A stretch of DNA of 43,863 bases from contig CALMML010000354.1 in NCBI GenBank assembly GCA_937868485.1, positions 1 through 43,863 on the forward strand, given 5' to 3'. The number at the start of each line of letters is the position of its first letter. Position 1 is the stretch's first letter. The position numbers were made by a program, and so were the translations under genes. The notes beneath the pieces are model-generated. The model saw only the letters and a list, made by a program, of their open reading frames with translations, was not told where the DNA came from and did no database searches. Origin of the DNA: an uncultured Myxococcales bacterium. Lineage in GTDB: Bacteria > Myxococcota_A > Polyangia > Palsa-1104 > JAEUJZ01. This document shows, piece by piece, positions 12,660 to 22,132 of the stretch.

Positions 12660-13655
12660 CTAGCGCAGCACGGTGAGCTGATCCGCTGGGCCGGTGCGCT
12701 CGATCTGCAAGCACGAGGGCGCGCCACCGATGGTCCAGCGCGACATGCCCACGTCAATGAGCGCGATCTTGCCGCCCGCTCGCAGGGAGATGCCTTTGTC
12801 CTGAATCGTATGACCCATTACGATTCGCTGCGCACCTTGGGCCTCGGCCAGCTCTTTGAGGTACGCCTGCGTCACCTGATCTTGAAGTGACTCCGCGAGG
12901 CCGCGAAACCACAGCGGACCTTCGGGATCGCTGCCCACGCCAAAGCTGCCGGGTGAGGGACGCTGAAGCTCGCTGCGCACCGCTTGGTTTAAGTCACTGA
13001 GCTTGCGTCGAACGTAGCGAGGGCTCAAGCCTCCGTGCATAAACAGCGTGTCGTTCACTTTGACGATCGCGTTGTGCGACATCAGCCAGCGACCGTACTT
13101 GCTCTGTGGACTGAATGCGGCGCGGTACTTTTCGACGCTGCAAGCGGGCTCGCGACCGACCGGCGTGATGCGTGGACCGTCGCCAAACGCAGCGAGTTCT
13201 CCGTCGGAGACATAGCGCAAATCACCCGCGATCGTCATGTATTCATGGTTGCCGATGAGCGCGTGAACCTTGCCCGCCGCTTTGCTCGCTTGGTCTTCCA
13301 GCTGGATCAGTAGATCCATCACCTTTTTGGAATCGGGCCCACGATCGAGCACATCGCCGGTCTGCACCAGGTGCGTCTTGCCCGCGATCCAGCTGCCTTT
13401 GTCGTCGATGATTCGGCACAGCTTGAGCGTTGCGACAAAGCGATCGTAGTCGCCATGGACATCACCGATGGCAACGATGCGCTGGACGCCCGAAAAGCTG
13501 TCCGACGGGATGTCTTTGGGCTTCGCGATGTCGGCCTGCGCTGTTTTCGTCGCCCACGGGCCAAGACCAACGATCAGCGCACCGATCAAGGTCAGCGTGT
13601 GGATGGTGTGAAGGGATCGCGCGTGACGAGAGAAAGAGAAGGGAAACAAGGCCAT
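12660..13655 (-). CDS. Shewanella-like metallophosphoesterase (PPP family), exported or membrane-anchored
   Basis: This 331-residue calcineurin-like phosphatase carries GDVHGDYDR (64-72), GDVLDRG (100-106), GNHEYM (135-140), FMHGGLSP and MGHT, the complete two-metal site of PPP-type enzymes. The spacing and the long insert between GNHE and the HGG motif match the bacterial Shewanella-like protein phosphatases. An N-terminal hydrophobic helix (about 19-40, LTLIGALIVGLGPWATKTAQA) ends like a signal peptide, so the enzyme probably works outside the cytoplasm. The substrate is unknown. It converges with the PP2C gene (48 bp between them) and follows the membrane-protein gene on the same strand by 18 bp. 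Confidence 0.88.
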   Translation of the reverse strand: MALFPFSFSRHARSLHTIHTLTLIGALIVGLGPWATKTAQADIAKPKDIPSDSFSGVQRIVAIGDVHGDYDRFVATLKLCRIIDDKGSWIAGKTHLVQTGDVLDRGPDSKKVMDLLIQLEDQASKAAGKVHALIGNHEYMTIAGDLRYVSDGELAAFGDGPRITPVGREPACSVEKYRAAFSPQSKYGRWLMSHNAIVKVNDTLFMHGGLSPRYVRRKLSDLNQAVRSELQRPSPGSFGVGSDPEGPLWFRGLAESLQDQVTQAYLKELAEAQGAQRIVMGHTIQDKGISLRAGGKIALIDVGMSRWTIGGAPSCLQIERTGPADQLTVLR

Positions 13656-13673
13656 GTTCGCTCTGGATGAAGG

Positions 13674-14624
13674 TTAGAAGCCCCAGCCGAGGGCTACGAT
13701 GGTGGCCATGACGATACCGACGCCAGCGAGGACCATGTCAATCGCGACCGTGCCGAGCAGCCGATGACGCGCTTCGCTCAGCAGATCTCCGACGACGAGG
13801 ATCGCACCTTTGCGCAGCCGCATCGTCTCACCGCCTCGGAAGGCTGGATCTTTTTGGTGTTCGACATCGCCTTGGATCGCAGCGCGCAGACCTTCGACGG
13901 CCATGGCATCACCGGCTTTGGCCGCACCGTGGAGCCCGATCGACAGCACTTCGCCTTCTTCGACGAAGACCGTGACGCGACGCTCACCGGAACGAATCGT
14001 CAGCGAGCCTTTGTCCGTTTCTTCCATCACACCTTCGAGCACGGGCTTGCCGCGCAGTCGTCGAACCTGCTCGTAGCTGCGATACGCGCCAAGTCCAAGC
14101 GGTGCCATCGCCAGCAGTCCCAGGATGAGCAGCACGGGATGACTCGGCGCCGCTTCTCGACGATGAACCGCACTGACCACGCGCTCGGGCTCAACCCAAG
14201 TCAGCGGTGCGACGCGATCCAGCGCTGCGGGCCGATTGTCCGGTCCCAGTCCCGGCAGGCTCTGTCCCGACGCGGTCAGCTTCAGCGCGCCGTGTCCTGG
14301 GCAGTGCGCCACCGCCTGAAGCACATCCGGCCCTTCTTCGAGCCACAGCCGACAGTCGAGCCAGTCTTTGGGCAGCGACAAGCTGGCGTAGCGCAAGATC
14401 TTGCCCTCAATGCTCGTGTCGACGACCATCAGCCGACCATGGGCCTTGTCGGGACCGATCTTCCACGGCAAGGTGCCTTGCAGCCACGCCACGGTCGCAA
14501 ACATCCCCTTCTGCCCGCCGGTCATCGCCGACAGATAGACCTGAGGCTTGCGCAGATCGTAGAGCCGCACACAAAACGCCAGTGCCAGCCATAGAAAGGC
14601 GAAGCCAAACGCCATCCGACGCAT
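13674..14624 (-). CDS. Membrane protein of unknown function
   Basis: ATG 14624 is fixed by a strong Shine-Dalgarno (AAGGAGGA, 14632-14639 read on the minus strand). It encodes 316 residues: an N-terminal helix (MAFGFAFLWLALAFCVRLY), an extracytoplasmic region of about 140 residues, a central helix (PVLLILGLLAMAPLGLGAY), a cytoplasmic or lumenal beta-rich segment (LEGVMEETDKGSLTIRSGER), and a C-terminal helix (AIDMVLAGVGIVMATIVALG). The topology is weakly reminiscent of GIDE-type or E3-like membrane proteins but has no RING motif. I do not recognise the family. It is 18 bp upstream of the metallophosphoesterase and probably cotranscribed. Confidence 0.78.
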   Translation of the reverse strand: MRRMAFGFAFLWLALAFCVRLYDLRKPQVYLSAMTGGQKGMFATVAWLQGTLPWKIGPDKAHGRLMVVDTSIEGKILRYASLSLPKDWLDCRLWLEEGPDVLQAVAHCPGHGALKLTASGQSLPGLGPDNRPAALDRVAPLTWVEPERVVSAVHRREAAPSHPVLLILGLLAMAPLGLGAYRSYEQVRRLRGKPVLEGVMEETDKGSLTIRSGERRVTVFVEEGEVLSIGLHGAAKAGDAMAVEGLRAAIQGDVEHQKDPAFRGGETMRLRKGAILVVGDLLSEARHRLLGTVAIDMVLAGVGIVMATIVALGWGF

Positions 14625-14721
14625 TGAGGGTTCCTCCTTAGCTCTTTCGTGAGATGCCAAGGCCTTCGTGGGGGCTTCCCAGCGCGACCTTTTCTACTAT
14701 GCTGCCGCCAATCGAGGCTCC

Positions 14722-16296
14722 ATGCTACAGCGCTCCGAACACTCCTTATCTCGCCATCGTCGTACCGCTCGGGAAGAGCTGTCAAACGTGGCATTTTCTC
14801 AGGCTCCCGTTCGCTCAGGCGACTGGCTTTGGTTGTGTCGGCAAGGCGCCGAGCACGATGTGTGCGAAGAACTCGCGCTCTACCGTGTCCAAGGTGAAGC
14901 GATTCAGCCCGCGCTGGTTCGCTCGTCGACGCAGCCCAAACAAGAGGTCCTGCTTACCTTCGTTCGCCAAGGAATTCCCGTCGCGACGGTGCTTCCGCCA
15001 GAGCCACGAGCGATCGCTCAGGCTGCGCTGTCGCGGATCAAGCGTCCGGTCGTGGTTCACGTCTTTGCGCCTGACTCCGACGCGGGCAACACGCTGTCGG
15101 CCCGTGCCGAAGCGCTCAAGTCCGCGCTGGTTGAAGTGCTGCGTGGCGCTGGGGTAGATATTCTGTCCGACGGAGAAGCTGCCGTTCAAGCTGGTGGTCA
15201 GATCGTTCAAGCCTGCTTTCTATCGAGCGATCAGGTTGCGGTCGGTGTGATTCCAGCGATCAAAGCGCAGAGCCTGTTTCCCGGCGGTCGGCAGCGGTTT
15301 CGCAAGCCCAAGGATGCTCCGTCGCGATCGGCTCGCAAGCTGGAAGAAGCGCTGGCCTGGTGTGGTCATACGCCCGCGCCGGGGGAAGTCTGCGTCGATC
15401 TCGGTGCTGCGCCAGGCGGCTGGAGCCAAGTGCTGGTCGACCGTCGCTGTCACGTTGTGGCGATCGATCCAGGTCGGCTGGCTCCAGAGATCGCTCGTCG
15501 GGTCGAACACCTGCGGATGAACGCGTTTTCGTTCGCGCCGGAGATTCCCGCCGACTGGGCGGTCTGCGATATGGCGTATCGACCGCTGGAGGTCGCGGCG
15601 CTGCTCGCTCGCTGGGGTCGTCATCGCTGGGCGCAGTTTTTGATCGCCAACTTCAAGCTGCCGATGAAAAAGCGCGTCGAGATGGTCGGTCGCATTCGCG
15701 AGATCCTGGCCACCGGCGGCTGGACCGGCATCAAGATGCGTCAGCTCTATCACGATCGCGAAGAGGTCACGGTCTTTGCCTGGCGTGGCTTCGGAAAAGA
15801 TACGCGGGTGCCAGTTCGAGCCAGCAAGGATTCGAGCGCTGCACCAAGTGCGCCAGCAACGGAAAGCGATGCCAAGCGATCGGGCGATCGACGCGGAGGA
15901 TTTGAGCCCGCCAAGCCCGTTGCCCGACGAGCGAGCGACGGACCCGCGAAGCCGACGAGCAAGCGAGGAAGCAGTGGACCCGCGAAGCCGACGAGCAAGC
16001 GAGGAAGCGGAGGATTTGAGCCCGCCAAGCCCGTTGCCCGACGAGCGAGCGACGGGCCATCGAAGCCGACGAGCAAGCGAGGAAGCAGTGGACCCGCGAA
16101 GCCGACGAGCAAGCGAGGAAGCAGTGGACCCGCGAAGCCGACGGCTAAGCGAGCGAGCGAGGGTTCTGCCAAGCCGGTACGTCGTAGCTCGTCAGGAAGT
16201 GCTGGCTCGTCGCGCAGCAGTGGTCCCAGCGATCGCTCGGACGTGCGCGGCGGTCGCGGAGGAGGTAAACCCAAAGGCCATGTCCGTCGCTCCTAA
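14722..16296 (+). CDS. RlmM-like 23S rRNA 2'-O-methyltransferase with repetitive basic tail
   Basis: From ATG 14722 the protein has 524 residues (GTG 14668 or GTG 14788 are alternatives). An N-terminal RNA-binding-like region is followed by an FtsJ/RrmJ-type SAM domain: VCVDLGAAPGGWSQVL (SAM motif I), VVAIDPG, WAVCDMAY, FLIANFKLPMKK and the final Glu strand EVTVFAWRG, giving the K-D-K-E type catalytic set expected of RlmM, which methylates C2498 of 23S rRNA in E. coli. After residue about 365 the protein continues about 150 residues in Lys/Arg/Ser/Pro/Gly repeats (PAKPTSKRGSSG), an addition not found in E. coli RlmM and likely an RNA-binding disordered tail. Its end overlaps the LarE-Nudix start by 17 bp. 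Confidence 0.83.
   Translation: MLQRSEHSLSRHRRTAREELSNVAFSQAPVRSGDWLWLCRQGAEHDVCEELALYRVQGEAIQPALVRSSTQPKQEVLLTFVRQGIPVATVLPPEPRAIAQAALSRIKRPVVVHVFAPDSDAGNTLSARAEALKSALVEVLRGAGVDILSDGEAAVQAGGQIVQACFLSSDQVAVGVIPAIKAQSLFPGGRQRFRKPKDAPSRSARKLEEALAWCGHTPAPGEVCVDLGAAPGGWSQVLVDRRCHVVAIDPGRLAPEIARRVEHLRMNAFSFAPEIPADWAVCDMAYRPLEVAALLARWGRHRWAQFLIANFKLPMKKRVEMVGRIREILATGGWTGIKMRQLYHDREEVTVFAWRGFGKDTRVPVRASKDSSAAPSAPATESDAKRSGDRRGGFEPAKPVARRASDGPAKPTSKRGSSGPAKPTSKRGSGGFEPAKPVARRASDGPSKPTSKRGSSGPAKPTSKRGSSGPAKPTAKRASEGSAKPVRRSSSGSAGSSRSSGPSDRSDVRGGRGGGKPKGHVRRS
15893..16160 (+). repeat. Nested 36-bp and 114-bp coding repeats in the methyltransferase tail
   Basis: A 36-bp unit encodes KPTSKRGSSGPA (12 residues) and recurs in tandem. 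A longer 114-bp unit starts at 15893 and again at 16007 (GFEPAKPVARRASDG plus two short units). All lengths are multiples of three, so copy changes keep the frame. The plus-two frame is also open through the array. Confidence 0.9.
16261..16265 (+). promoter_or_regulatory. Shine-Dalgarno (GGAGG) for the LarE-Nudix gene, inside the upstream CDS
   Basis: GGAGG lies at 16261-16265 within the last codons of the methyltransferase gene, about 14 bp ahead of ATG 16280. The spacing is a little long, but no closer in-frame start exists; ATG 16304 is farther. Confidence 0.5.
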
Positions 16297-17701
16297 CTCT
16301 GTCATGGATGGATCTACCTTGCCTTCCGTCGGTTCCTCTTCGGCGGGATCGACCCTTTCGACTGCGCTGGCTGACAAGCTGGCGCTGCTTCGTCGCGTCA
16401 TTTCTGGTTACGGTCCGTCGCTGGTTGCCTTTTCGGGCGGTGTCGATTCGGCGCTGGTCCTGAAGGTTGCTGCCGACGAGCTGGCTGATGCTGCCGTCGC
16501 ATTTACCGCCGTGTCTGAGACCATGGCGGAGCGTGAGATCGAGTCAGCAGCGGCGATCGCTCGTCAGCTTCATGTTCGCTATGAGCCGGTGCGCTCGAAT
16601 GAGCTGTCTCGGCCCGGCTTTGCCCAAAACCCGAGCAATCGCTGCTATCACTGCAAGTCCGAGCTGTTCGATCTGGCGGAGCCGACGCGAGAGCGACTCG
16701 GGCTGCGACACATTCTGCTCGGGACGAACCTGGATGACCTGGGCGATCACCGACCGGGACTGATTGCGGCCAAAGAGCGTGGAGCCAAGCAGCCTCTCGT
16801 CGAAGCGGGCCTGAGCAAAGCGGACGTGCGAGAGCTGGCGCGACACCTGGGCTTGCCGGTGTGGAACAAGCCGCAGCTGGCGTGTCTGTCGTCGCGGTTT
16901 CCGTATGGAACGACGCTGACCGAAGAGCGCTTGCGGATGGTCGATCGGTTCGAGCAGGCGCTGTACGATCTGGGCTTTGCGCAGCTTCGCGTTCGATTTC
17001 ATGAGCTTCCGTCGCTGCCTGGTGATCCGAATGCGCAAAAACCGGCGATGGCGCGCGTCGAGCTGATGCCCGAGCTGCTGCCGGAAGCGGTGCGTCTGTC
17101 CAAGCAGATCGTCGAAGCGGGCAAGCAAGCCGGGTTTTTGTATGTGACGGTTGATCTCGAAGGATTTCGCTCGGGATCGGCCAACTTGGTGCTCAAGCGC
17201 TTGCCGGTGCTCGGGAAGATTCCGCCGAGTGCGAGTCCGCCGGTTTCCGCGCCGAGTGCTGCACCGCTGTTGTCGAATGTCCCGTCGGCGACAAAGGTGC
17301 CGCGTCCGCGCAAGACCGTCGTGGCGGCGCTCATCGATCGTTTGTCCGACGGAGCGATCCTGCTGAGCCTGCGCGGACCGAACCAGTCGATGCCCGGTCT
17401 GTGGGAGCTTCCCGGCGGCAAGATCGAGCCGGGTGAGTCTCCCGAAGCGGCGCTCATTCGCGAGGTCCGCGAGGAGCTGGACGTTGAGGTGCGCGTTCGC
17501 TCGATCTACGACGTCGTGTCGTTTGCCTATCCCGACTTCGATCTGCTGATGCTGGTGTATCGCTGTGAGCTTCTCGGGGAGCCGTCGGCCAAAGAGGTCG
17601 CGCAGGTGTGCTTTGTGCCCAGATCAGAGCTGCTGCGTCGTCCGGTGCTGCCGGCGGACATTCCGCTTTTGGAAAAGCTGTCGCAGCACGGGCTGAGCTA
17701 G
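16280..17701 (+). CDS. larE: LarE-type PP-loop sulfurtransferase fused to a C-terminal Nudix hydrolase
   Basis: The 473-residue protein joins two enzymes. Residues about 30-310 are LarE, the ATP-dependent sulfur donor for the nickel-pincer nucleotide cofactor: PP-loop FSGGVDSAL (51-59), NPSNRCYHCKSELF with Cys122 and Cys125, GTNLDDLGDHRPG, and NKPQLACLSSRFPYG with Cys202. These three cysteines match the LarE subclass expected to hold an iron-sulfur cluster, rather than the single sacrificial-cysteine type. A Pro/Ser linker (315-342) leads to a Nudix domain (345-470), with Nudix box GKIEPGESPEAALIREVREEL at about 380-400. The overall sequence near the box resembles MutT-type NTP pyrophosphatases. 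No larB, larC or lactate racemase gene is in the window. The gene overlaps the methyltransferase by 17 bp and runs into the lipoprotein gene after 3 bp. Confidence 0.88.
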   Translation: MSVAPNSVMDGSTLPSVGSSSAGSTLSTALADKLALLRRVISGYGPSLVAFSGGVDSALVLKVAADELADAAVAFTAVSETMAEREIESAAAIARQLHVRYEPVRSNELSRPGFAQNPSNRCYHCKSELFDLAEPTRERLGLRHILLGTNLDDLGDHRPGLIAAKERGAKQPLVEAGLSKADVRELARHLGLPVWNKPQLACLSSRFPYGTTLTEERLRMVDRFEQALYDLGFAQLRVRFHELPSLPGDPNAQKPAMARVELMPELLPEAVRLSKQIVEAGKQAGFLYVTVDLEGFRSGSANLVLKRLPVLGKIPPSASPPVSAPSAAPLLSNVPSATKVPRPRKTVVAALIDRLSDGAILLSLRGPNQSMPGLWELPGGKIEPGESPEAALIREVREELDVEVRVRSIYDVVSFAYPDFDLLMLVYRCELLGEPSAKEVAQVCFVPRSELLRRPVLPADIPLLEKLSQHGLS

Positions 17702-18875: not shown

Positions 18876-21872
18876 TTAGTGCAGGATCAGGCCGAACTGA
18901 CCGACGGCCCACATGTCACCGGGACGGCTGCTCCAGATGCCGGACAGGGTCTTCTTCGTCGGCGACAGGACCTTGCTCCACGACGTGCCGCCGCTCCAGT
19001 GCAGGATGACGCCGCCCGAGCCCACGGCCCACACGTCAAACGGACCGTTGCCGAAGATCGAGTTGATGTCTTCCGACGTACCACTTGGCGACGCAGCCCA
19101 GGCCTTGCCGTTGTAGTACAGGATGAGACCCTTCTGACCGCCCGCCCACAGCGAGTCCGGGCGCGAGCCGAACATGGTGTGGATGGTGCGCGGCGGCTGC
19201 GGAACGTCGTAGGTGACCTTGGCCCACGCCGAGCCGTTGTAGCGAACGATCGTGCTCTGATCGCCACCTGCCCAGATGTCTTTGCGATCGAATCCGAACA
19301 CCGAGTGCAGGTTCGTATCGACGGTGGTGGCCAGCGAAGTCCAGGACTTGCCGTCGTAGTGCAGCGAGGTTCCTTTTTCGCCCACCGCCCAGATGTCCTG
19401 TGCGTCGAGAGCGAACATCGCATTGAGGTTGCCCGCGACACCGCTTTGGACGGGTTCCCACGCCGTGCCGGTATAGTGCAGCAGCGTGCCTTTGTCGCCG
19501 CAGACCCACAGGTTCGACGGACCGCTGCCCGAGACGCCGTGCAGATCGCTGGTGGTGCCGCTCGGGACGGTGTTCCAGAGCTTGCCGTCCCAGTGGACGA
19601 TGGTTCCGGCCTTGCCGACGCCCCAGACATCGTTTTGGCTGCTTCCGAAGACGTGATCGAGGCTCTGCGTGATGCTCGTGACGGGAACAACCGACCACGT
19701 CTTGCCGCTGAAGTGACGGATGACGCCCTTGAAGCCGACGGTCCAGACATCGTTGGGACCGCTGCCGAAGACGCTCTTGAATGTTTCCGTCGTGCCGCTG
19801 ATCGACTCAGCCCACTGCGTGCCGTTAAAGTGCAGGATCGCGCCGCTGTCGCCGATGACCCAAATGTCGTGCGGGCTCGATCCCCAGATGGCGTTCAGCC
19901 ACGGGACGCGCGGAATGCGCTCTTGCAGCCAGGCCGAACCGTTCCAGTGATGGACGGTTCCTTCGGGACCGGGACGACCACCGACGGCCCAGATGTCCTT
20001 GGCCGAGTGTCCCCACAGGGAGTTCAGACGGGCTTCGACGTGACCGTAGGTTGCCCACTTGGTTCCGTCCCAGCGCAGGATGATACCGTCTGAAGCATCC
20101 GAGCCACCGACGGCCCAGATGTCGTTGGCGGCGCTGCCCCAGATGCCGCGAAGCTCGGTGTCCATGCCGCTCGGCGTCGGGCTCCAGTCGTTGCCATTCC
20201 AGTGCAGGATGACGCCGTTTTCACCGACGGCCCACGCATTGTCCTTGGCAAGACCCCAGACCTTCTTGAGTCCTTCGCGGGCACCAGACGGAACTTCGTT
20301 CCACTTGTTTCCGTCGAAGTGGATGATGACGCCTTCTTTGCCAACCACCCACACGTCTTCGGCAGAGCTGCCCCAGATCGCGTTCAAGTACGTCTTGCTG
20401 GCGTTCGCCGGAAGCTCAGCGGCGGACCATGCCGTGCCGTTCCAGCGCAGCAGCGTGCCGTTTTTGCCGACTGCCCACAGGCTCGACGGACCCGTGCCCC
20501 ACATGTCTTGCAGCACCTGCGTGGTACCGCTCGGGACATCCGCCCAGAAGCGACCGGGCGTCTCGGGACCCTTGACGACGGGCTTGACGTCCGCTGGATC
20601 GGTCGGCTTATCGACCGGCGGCGAACCAGTCAGCTTGACGGCGAGCGCTCCACCGGCGGCGACCACAAGGCCGATGACCCCGATGAGCGCGAACTTTTGC
20701 CACTTGGGACTCTGTGCGGGCGCTGGGTTCTGCATGGCGTTTTGAGAGTTACCTGCTGGGTCTTGAGCTGGATCAGACGCTCCACCGGCCTGCGACTGAA
20801 CACCAAGTCCAGCCAAAGAGCGCCTGAGCGATGTTCCGGCCAGGTTCGCGGTGCCGCCCGACTGGAGCGGACCTTGGGCACCTGCGCCGGTCTGACGAAG
20901 ACCGATCTGCGACGTGCGAATGCCAGGCGGACGCTGCGTGGTGCGCATCGGGCCGCTCGGCATGCCAGGTCCACCAGAAGAAGGAACTGGCTGGCCCGGA
21001 AGGCTCATCTCGGTGTTGATCCCGAGGATGCGACGAAGCTCTCGGGTGACGTTCGCGATCGACGGACGATCGGCGGGCACCTTCGACAGCATCTGATGAA
21101 TCAGATCGTTTACTTCGGGCGGCACATTCGGTGCCAGCTCATTGAGAGGACGCGGCGTCGCCAGGATGTGCAGCGCCATGACCTCGCTGCCGGAGTTTGC
21201 GATAAACGGCGGCTGCCCCGACAGCATCTCGTACATGATGACCGCGAGCGAGTAGACGTCCGCCTTGTCCTCGACTTCGCTTGCGCCCTTCCACTGCTCG
21301 GGCGCCATGTAGAGCGGCGTGCCCATCGGAACGCCGACTTGCGTCTTCGCCAGCGACGGACCCATGCCCTGGGACTCGGCCATTTTGGCGATGCCGAAGT
21401 CGAGGATCTTGATCTGCTCGCGGCTCGCGTCGCCCTGATCCTGGACAATCATGATGTTGTCCGGCTTGAGGTCGCGATGGATCACGCCCTTCGAGTGAGC
21501 GGCGGTGAGCGCTTCCGCAACTTGCAGGATCAGGGACAGCGCCGGTCCTGGCTCCATCCGGCCACCCATGCGCTGAAGCCGCTGCGTCAACGAATCACCG
21601 TCGAGGTAATCCATGACGATGTAGGCGCTGCCGTCGGGCAAACGGTCAAACTCGAAGATGTTGACGATGCCCGGATGCTGCACGATGTTGGCGGCGCGTG
21701 CCTCGTTGAGGAAGCGCGTTGCCATCTCGGGATTCCGAGAGAAGTCGGCGTGAAGCACCTTGATGGCGGCTCGACGATTGATGAGCTCGTGGATGGCTTC
21801 GAAGACGACGCCCATTCCACCTTCGCCAAGCTTGCGCACTATCCGGTAATTTCCGATTCGCTGGTCGGCCAT
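18876..21872 (-). CDS. Transmembrane Ser/Thr protein kinase with a 14-repeat C-terminal propeller-like domain
   Basis: From ATG 21872 the protein has 998 residues. The kinase domain (8-284) is complete: GEGGMG (16-21), Lys38, HRDLKPDN (132-139), DFG (158-160), APE (190-192). A Pro/Gly/Ser juxtamembrane region (285-392) leads to one membrane helix (393-413). The rest (about 440-998) holds 14 copies of a repeat centred on DxWAVGxxGxILHWNGxxW, separated by about 35-45 residues. The order is that of PknB-type receptors, with the repeats facing the periplasm as a sensor. The protein ends mid-unit (QFGLILH), so the last blade could be completed by the N-terminal strand (FWADVPSG), a velcro closure. 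It may be countered by the PP2C at 11226. The 45-residue repeat is known from myxobacterial secreted proteins of unknown function. Confidence 0.92.
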   Translation of the reverse strand: MADQRIGNYRIVRKLGEGGMGVVFEAIHELINRRAAIKVLHADFSRNPEMATRFLNEARAANIVQHPGIVNIFEFDRLPDGSAYIVMDYLDGDSLTQRLQRMGGRMEPGPALSLILQVAEALTAAHSKGVIHRDLKPDNIMIVQDQGDASREQIKILDFGIAKMAESQGMGPSLAKTQVGVPMGTPLYMAPEQWKGASEVEDKADVYSLAVIMYEMLSGQPPFIANSGSEVMALHILATPRPLNELAPNVPPEVNDLIHQMLSKVPADRPSIANVTRELRRILGINTEMSLPGQPVPSSGGPGMPSGPMRTTQRPPGIRTSQIGLRQTGAGAQGPLQSGGTANLAGTSLRRSLAGLGVQSQAGGASDPAQDPAGNSQNAMQNPAPAQSPKWQKFALIGVIGLVVAAGGALAVKLTGSPPVDKPTDPADVKPVVKGPETPGRFWADVPSGTTQVLQDMWGTGPSSLWAVGKNGTLLRWNGTAWSAAELPANASKTYLNAIWGSSAEDVWVVGKEGVIIHFDGNKWNEVPSGAREGLKKVWGLAKDNAWAVGENGVILHWNGNDWSPTPSGMDTELRGIWGSAANDIWAVGGSDASDGIILRWDGTKWATYGHVEARLNSLWGHSAKDIWAVGGRPGPEGTVHHWNGSAWLQERIPRVPWLNAIWGSSPHDIWVIGDSGAILHFNGTQWAESISGTTETFKSVFGSGPNDVWTVGFKGVIRHFSGKTWSVVPVTSITQSLDHVFGSSQNDVWGVGKAGTIVHWDGKLWNTVPSGTTSDLHGVSGSGPSNLWVCGDKGTLLHYTGTAWEPVQSGVAGNLNAMFALDAQDIWAVGEKGTSLHYDGKSWTSLATTVDTNLHSVFGFDRKDIWAGGDQSTIVRYNGSAWAKVTYDVPQPPRTIHTMFGSRPDSLWAGGQKGLILYYNGKAWAASPSGTSEDINSIFGNGPFDVWAVGSGGVILHWSGGTSWSKVLSPTKKTLSGIWSSRPGDMWAVGQFGLILH
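18909..20545 (-). repeat. 14 diverged coding repeats of about 120-135 bp in the kinase sensor domain
   Basis: The repeats read (S/N/D)xWxxG followed by ILHWNG-like text; units are marked by SLWAVG, DVWVVG, NAWAVG, DIWAVG, DIWAVG, DIWVIG, DVWTVG, DVWGVG, NLWVCG, DIWAVG, DIWAGG, SLWAGG, DVWAVG and DMWAVG. Copies are diverged at DNA level, so this is an old array, not a recent expansion. Confidence 0.85.
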
Positions 21873-22132
21873 GAAACGACCTTGTGGCTGTTCTCTTGAG
21901 GCAAGGCCGCGTTTCCATCCCACCACAATCGGTGAGCTTGTCGCTAAGCAGCCTTGAGTAACCAGTGTCTACGATCTGCTATTTTACCGCAAAAGAAAAC
22001 TGGTTTTAAATACTGGCAGATATGTACCAAATGTGTGCCATCTCGTCGGACAATTCAATAGCGTTTTCATAGAGATCCCATGGTCATACATTGTCACCCA
22101 GTCTGTGCCCCGGTGTGTGCCGACTTGAAAGC

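Follow-up and report, generated by a model that had tools for sequence, protein, structure and literature searches.

A LarE-Nudix fusion protein in one family of uncultured myxobacteria

We found that a family of uncultured myxobacteria carries LarE, an enzyme of nickel-pincer-nucleotide (NPN) biosynthesis, and a Nudix hydrolase domain on a single polypeptide. The gene under study lies in the window, by which we mean the whole stretch of 43,863 nucleotides that was analyzed, and its features are collected in Table 1. We consider it fairly likely that the protein is a lineage-specific bifunctional fusion of two old enzymes, each of which would still carry out its ancestral reaction.

Table 1. 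Coordinates of the fusion gene, its functional elements, and the upstream gene in the window
Feature	Position	Strand	Remarks
RlmM-type 23S rRNA C2498 2'-O-methyltransferase	14668..16296	+	PRK11760, 199.7 bits (cut-off 176)
Shine-Dalgarno-like GGAGGAGG	16258..16265	+	14 bases before the fusion-gene ATG; read from sequence
larE-nudix fusion gene	16280..17701	+	ATG to TAG, 473 aa, single open frame
LarE domain, residues 33-302	16376..17185	+	PP-loop ATP pyrophosphatase, sulfur insertase; TIGR00268, PDB, and Foldseek matches
PP-loop SGGVDS, residues 52-57	16433..16450	+	
Cys122-x2-Cys125, first two predicted [4Fe-4S] ligands	16643..16654	+	nearly invariant in alignment A1
Cys202 (ACLSSRFPYG), third predicted cluster ligand	16883..16885	+	invariant in alignment A1
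Variable Pro/Ser/Ala linker, residues 306-341	17195..17302	+	predicted disordered
Nudix domain, residues 347-466	17318..17677	+	MutT/NudG-like; PF00293
Nudix box GKIEPGESPEAALIREVREELDV, residues 380-402	17417..17485	+	Asp replaces the last Gly; one stand-alone orthologue shares this

The two domains share one reading frame, as the preliminary description had stated. The LarE model TIGR00268 scored 291 bits against a cut-off of 150 and aligned from position 2 to 259 of its 259 positions, and the Pfam NUDIX model PF00293 scored 70.2 bits against a cut-off of 21.1. In a predicted structural model, both domains were obtained at moderate to high confidence, while the region linking them (residues 294 to 340) had a pLDDT under 50 and is probably disordered. 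The linker differs in length and sequence among the fusions of the relatives, and all of its length changes are multiples of three. Comparison with the closest relative (G002) gave dN/dS values of 0.05 for LarE, 0.09 for Nudix, and 0.46 for the linker, and in more distant pairs the linker was again the least constrained section. Selection is purifying on both domains and relaxed in the linker.

Judged by its sequence, the N-terminal half is a LarE of the [4Fe-4S] type, and it passes the TIGR00268 equivalog cut-off. It matched L. plantarum LarE in the PDB (E 1.3e-39; Foldseek E 6e-23). The structural search is uninformative on the Nudix substrate, because only LarE chains were among the 50 best matches listed. 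The PP-loop and three cysteines that had been noted earlier are indeed present, and Cys122, Cys125, and Cys202 make up the CXXC-C triad of [4Fe-4S]-type LarE, a pattern that PMC9283937 describes for Thermotoga maritima LarE. Residues Ser205, Arg237, and Arg239 align with Ser180, Arg212, and Arg214 of L. plantarum LarE, which have been proposed to bind the phosphate of P2CMN. T. maritima LarE has in common with the fusion the SGGXDS PP-loop, the CXXC-C pattern, and the phosphate-binding Ser/Arg/Arg set. However, it is a single-domain protein, whereas the fusion adds a Nudix domain through a linker. An insertion of 13 to 16 residues follows the RVRFHE motif in the fused LarE proteins (window positions 17002 to 17055, residues about 242 to 256), and it is missing from all seven stand-alone LarE proteins aligned.

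The domain that follows the linker is a full Nudix domain, in agreement with the earlier reading. Its Nudix box, GKIEPGE-x7-REVREELDV, is intact, and the signature Gx5Ex7REUxEExGU is complete save for the change of the final Gly to Asp. The residues E386, R394, E395, E398, and E399 are kept in all six fusions, as are 36 of the 44 columns that are conserved in 16 stand-alone orthologues. Among these unchanged columns are all the catalytic acidic residues of the Nudix box, as well as PAD in the LPAD segment. In genus g1, three family-conserved positions have changed (H415F, W445F, and G401D), and these changes could reflect a shift of substrate.

By its sequence, the Nudix half is MutT/NudG-like and assignable to neither equivalog: it scored 72 bits with TIGR00586 (MutT 8-oxo-dGTP diphosphatase; cut-off 97.9) and 75.5 bits with PRK10546 (NudG; cut-off 156). 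Among solved structures, the nearest to it are 3r03 (NUDIX hydrolase), 3hhj (mutator MutT), 3ees (probable pyrophosphohydrolase), and the CTP pyrophosphohydrolase 2rrk, which is E. coli NudG. E. coli MutT and NudG share the Nudix fold and the intact catalytic box with this half, and NudG also shares the C-terminal PADIPLL segment. In contrast to them, the half falls below the equivalog cut-offs, is joined to LarE, and has Asp in place of the last Nudix-box Gly. The best NCBIfam match was PRK08999, at 92 bits and below the cut-off of 245. Proteins of that type join a MutT-like Nudix domain to a second domain, presumably a cofactor-related one, and are a precedent for a MutT-like domain combined with a cofactor-biosynthesis domain, but their partner differs from LarE and their domains come in the opposite order. 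NMN adenylyltransferase-Nudix proteins (NadM-Nudix, NCBIfam PRK05379), which are of the slr0787 type, carry a Nudix domain fused C-terminally to a nicotinate-nucleotide enzyme, as here. They differ in that their Nudix domain is not of the MutT/NudG subtype and their partner is an adenylyltransferase, and PRK05379 scored 20.7 bits on the fusion against a cut-off of 449. From these two families, the joining of a MutT-like domain to a cofactor enzyme is thus already known as a general arrangement, and what appears new is the pairing with LarE.

The joined protein occurs in all six genomes of family f1 (G000 to G005), a single Myxococcota family of uncultured myxobacteria with four genera. In G001 the gene is interrupted by a contig end, and LarE from residue 129 onward and the Nudix domain share one frame on one contig. 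Among the genomes of the class, 193 gave a match at E<=1e-60. The match extended across both domains in the six f1 genomes, and the fusion was absent from the 187 other LarE-positive genomes. We also rejected independent fusions elsewhere in the phylum, because no match to both domains was found beyond f1 among 379 genomes drawn from the Myxococcota, a draw that covered fusions with clear Nudix similarity in this phylum. Since only f1 genomes match both domains in the class and phylum samples, the fusion is, as far as the data reach, a single family-level event.

This distribution bears on whether the joined frame is real and whether it matters. As far as they have been named, these genomes are metagenome assemblies in fragments, so that a frameshift or misassembly might in principle have joined two neighboring genes. 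We give this practically no weight: the six genomes represent four genera and include divergent members (about 60 to 64% identity), yet they have an identical architecture, and the linker indels keep the frame. The same in-frame junction in six genomes of the family rules out such an artifact, and the preliminary description was right that the fusion is not an ORF-calling error. It is also very unlikely that the Nudix domain is translated alone as well, from a start inside the linker, and that the joined frame is of little importance. The linker does hold in-frame GTG and TTG codons in the window gene and ATG codons in G003, G004, and G005. However, a Shine-Dalgarno-like sequence precedes none of these codons, the start positions are not conserved among the linkers of the relatives, and the frame across the linker stays open in all relatives despite the length changes. 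We therefore rejected a Nudix-only internal ribosome start on the basis of the missing Shine-Dalgarno-like sequences and the unconserved starts.

The Nudix half is, from sequence comparison, orthologous to a MutT/NudG-like gene that stands alone in neighboring families. One clear free-standing orthologue was found in each of the sister families. The open reading frames measured in families f3 and f5 encode 139 to 144 aa (G007, G009, G012, and G015) or 131 aa (G054), which leaves no space for a second domain. In a phylogenetic tree, the fused domains grouped with the stand-alone genes of f2, f3, f5, and f14 and apart from the paralogues tested. The stand-alone genes largely clustered by family, and the deeper forks were modestly supported. 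The orthologue is also present where LarE was not found, in two incomplete MAGs: G011 (80% complete), in which LarE, LarC, and LarA were not found, and G006 (95% complete), in which LarE and LarC were not found. Over 58 genomes, the co-occurrence of the orthologue with LarE was weak (Fisher p 0.04, or 0.13 without f1, both uncorrected for kinship). Proximity of larE to the stand-alone Nudix gene was seen only in G010, a genome of a sister family, where about 0.7 kb separates the two convergent genes (L066, contig C148, positions 221 to 2153). An ancestral operon of larE and a stand-alone Nudix gene was rejected, because the two lie within 1 kb only there and are convergent. For the same reason of orientation, the fusion did not arise by simple loss of a stop codon at a G010-like locus.

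The preliminary description had seen no lar partner genes nearby. This holds for the window genes examined, but it misleads in implying that the partners are missing: LarB, LarC, and a LarA-like protein are all encoded on other contigs of the same genome. LarB (286 bits) is encoded at C84:334-954, and LarC begins immediately after it. LarC itself is split into two pieces, which lie at the ends of C84 and C86. An assembly break within a single gene would give this pattern, and LarC is whole in G001, G002, and G004, where larB again adjoins larC. The LarA-like gene is on contig C189 (Lar_N, 129 bits), and its product most resembles, among solved structures, the LarA-like NPN enzymes 9q2u and 9q3j. 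With larB, larC, and a LarA-like gene in the same genome, the LarE half probably works in the ordinary NPN pathway. The LarA-like protein (L003, positions 928 to 2508) has 527 aa and is 97% identical in G001 and about 80% identical in sister families. The LarC of this genus contains a long His/Asp/Glu-rich repeat of HHHHDEH units in its N-terminal part, which varies in length (L136, positions 1501 to 2829, for the LarC of G002; L058, positions 13304 to 14539, minus strand, for the genome of the window). This repeat is likely a nickel-binding or storage segment. In G006 (L142 and L115), a LarA-like gene is present, yet no LarE or LarC match was found; this pattern may be due to an assembly gap or to a LarA-like enzyme without NPN synthesis of its own.

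We suggest the following scenario. The [4Fe-4S]-dependent LarE half would adenylylate the carboxylates of P2CMN with ATP and insert sulfur delivered by the cluster, giving P2TMN; PMC9283937 presents this conversion, with ATP and cluster-borne sulfur, as established for the family. P2TMN would then pass to LarC, encoded elsewhere, and the resulting NPN to the LarA-like enzyme. The Nudix domain would have been a separate gene, whose fusion to larE happened a single time, in the f1 ancestor. It most likely hydrolyzes (d)NTPs by analogy with its relatives, as an active MutT/NudG-type pyrophosphohydrolase that would convert a nucleoside triphosphate, possibly an oxidized or a pyrimidine one, to NMP and PPi. 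On its flexible tether it would work independently of LarE. However, the fusion has been kept across four genera although the neighbor genes differ, which suggests some benefit of coupling and weakens the case for independence of the halves.

A closer tie to the cofactor is chemically plausible, since bonds of the Nudix type do occur in the pathway: according to PMC11796402, LarC attaches CMP to the P2TMN phosphate and subsequently hydrolyzes this linkage, and LarB hydrolyzes NaAD. A dedicated NPN-pathway Nudix domain in f1 would sit beside the enzyme that handles the intermediates and hydrolyze a phosphoanhydride of the pathway, or clear dead-end adducts; its targets might be the cytidinylylated P2TMN or NPN of LarC (with release of CMP), excess NaAD, or an adenylylated by-product. 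The likeness of the Nudix half to the E. coli CTP pyrophosphohydrolase NudG (2rrk; PRK10546), the conservation of the fusion across four genera, and the proximity of the two genes in G010 are in keeping with this. We nevertheless regard it as unlikely, because the known LarB and LarC already perform these hydrolyses and no Nudix gene was found beside the larB-larC pairs examined. In addition, the orthologue is a stand-alone gene, is not near larE in genomes other than G010, is present where LarE was not found, and has family-conserved residues that the fusions mostly keep. For these last reasons, of the roles that had been offered for the second domain, sanitizing a nucleotide pool fits best, and action on the cofactor itself is conceivable and unsupported.

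Quite unlikely, in our estimate, is a role in which the domain consumes or signals a by-product of LarE (AMP, PPi, or mis-adenylylated substrate) or serves as a ligand-sensing regulatory module. LarE releases AMP and PPi at each step, according to PMC11796402, and non-catalytic Nudix domains usually occur in multidomain proteins (PMC5389931). However, all six fusions retain an intact, conserved catalytic Nudix box, Nudix enzymes yield PPi or NMP and do not consume them, and the most similar solved structures carry the annotations MutT, CTP pyrophosphohydrolase, or pyrophosphohydrolase. Present evidence favors the unremarkable capture of a housekeeping enzyme.

The joining of LarE to Nudix is apparently undescribed. 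The preliminary description knew of no account of the pairing, and we found none in the open-access literature (subscription papers and InterPro architectures lay outside the search); the available parts of PMC9283937, PMC11770544, PMC11796402, and PMC7583248 do not mention the fusion as a LarE architecture. NPN biosynthesis is regarded as three steps (LarB, LarE, and LarC), none of which involves a Nudix enzyme. If the halves are coupled, a phosphoanhydride hydrolase on LarE would add quality control of the cofactor or a missing release step, and an NPN intermediate as the Nudix substrate would mean a previously unknown step or quality control in the pathway. If they are uncoupled, the protein would be a clean case in which, within one bacterial family, a cofactor enzyme has captured a housekeeping nucleotide hydrolase. 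The fusion is a natural construct for testing LarE-Nudix coupling.

Upstream, the RlmM-type gene overlaps the start of the fusion gene by 17 bases, and this overlap makes translational coupling of the two genes probable. The same gene order is found in G001 and G002, and an RlmM-type gene was not found beside the fusion in G003 to G005. The C-terminal tail of the RlmM-type protein is long and made up of Lys/Ser/Pro/Gly-rich repeats (SKRGSSGPAKPT units). Downstream, on the minus strand (window positions 18876 to 21926), lies the gene for a large Ser/Thr protein kinase with long C-terminal repeats (WAVG...GTIVHWDGK...W units) that appear propeller-like.
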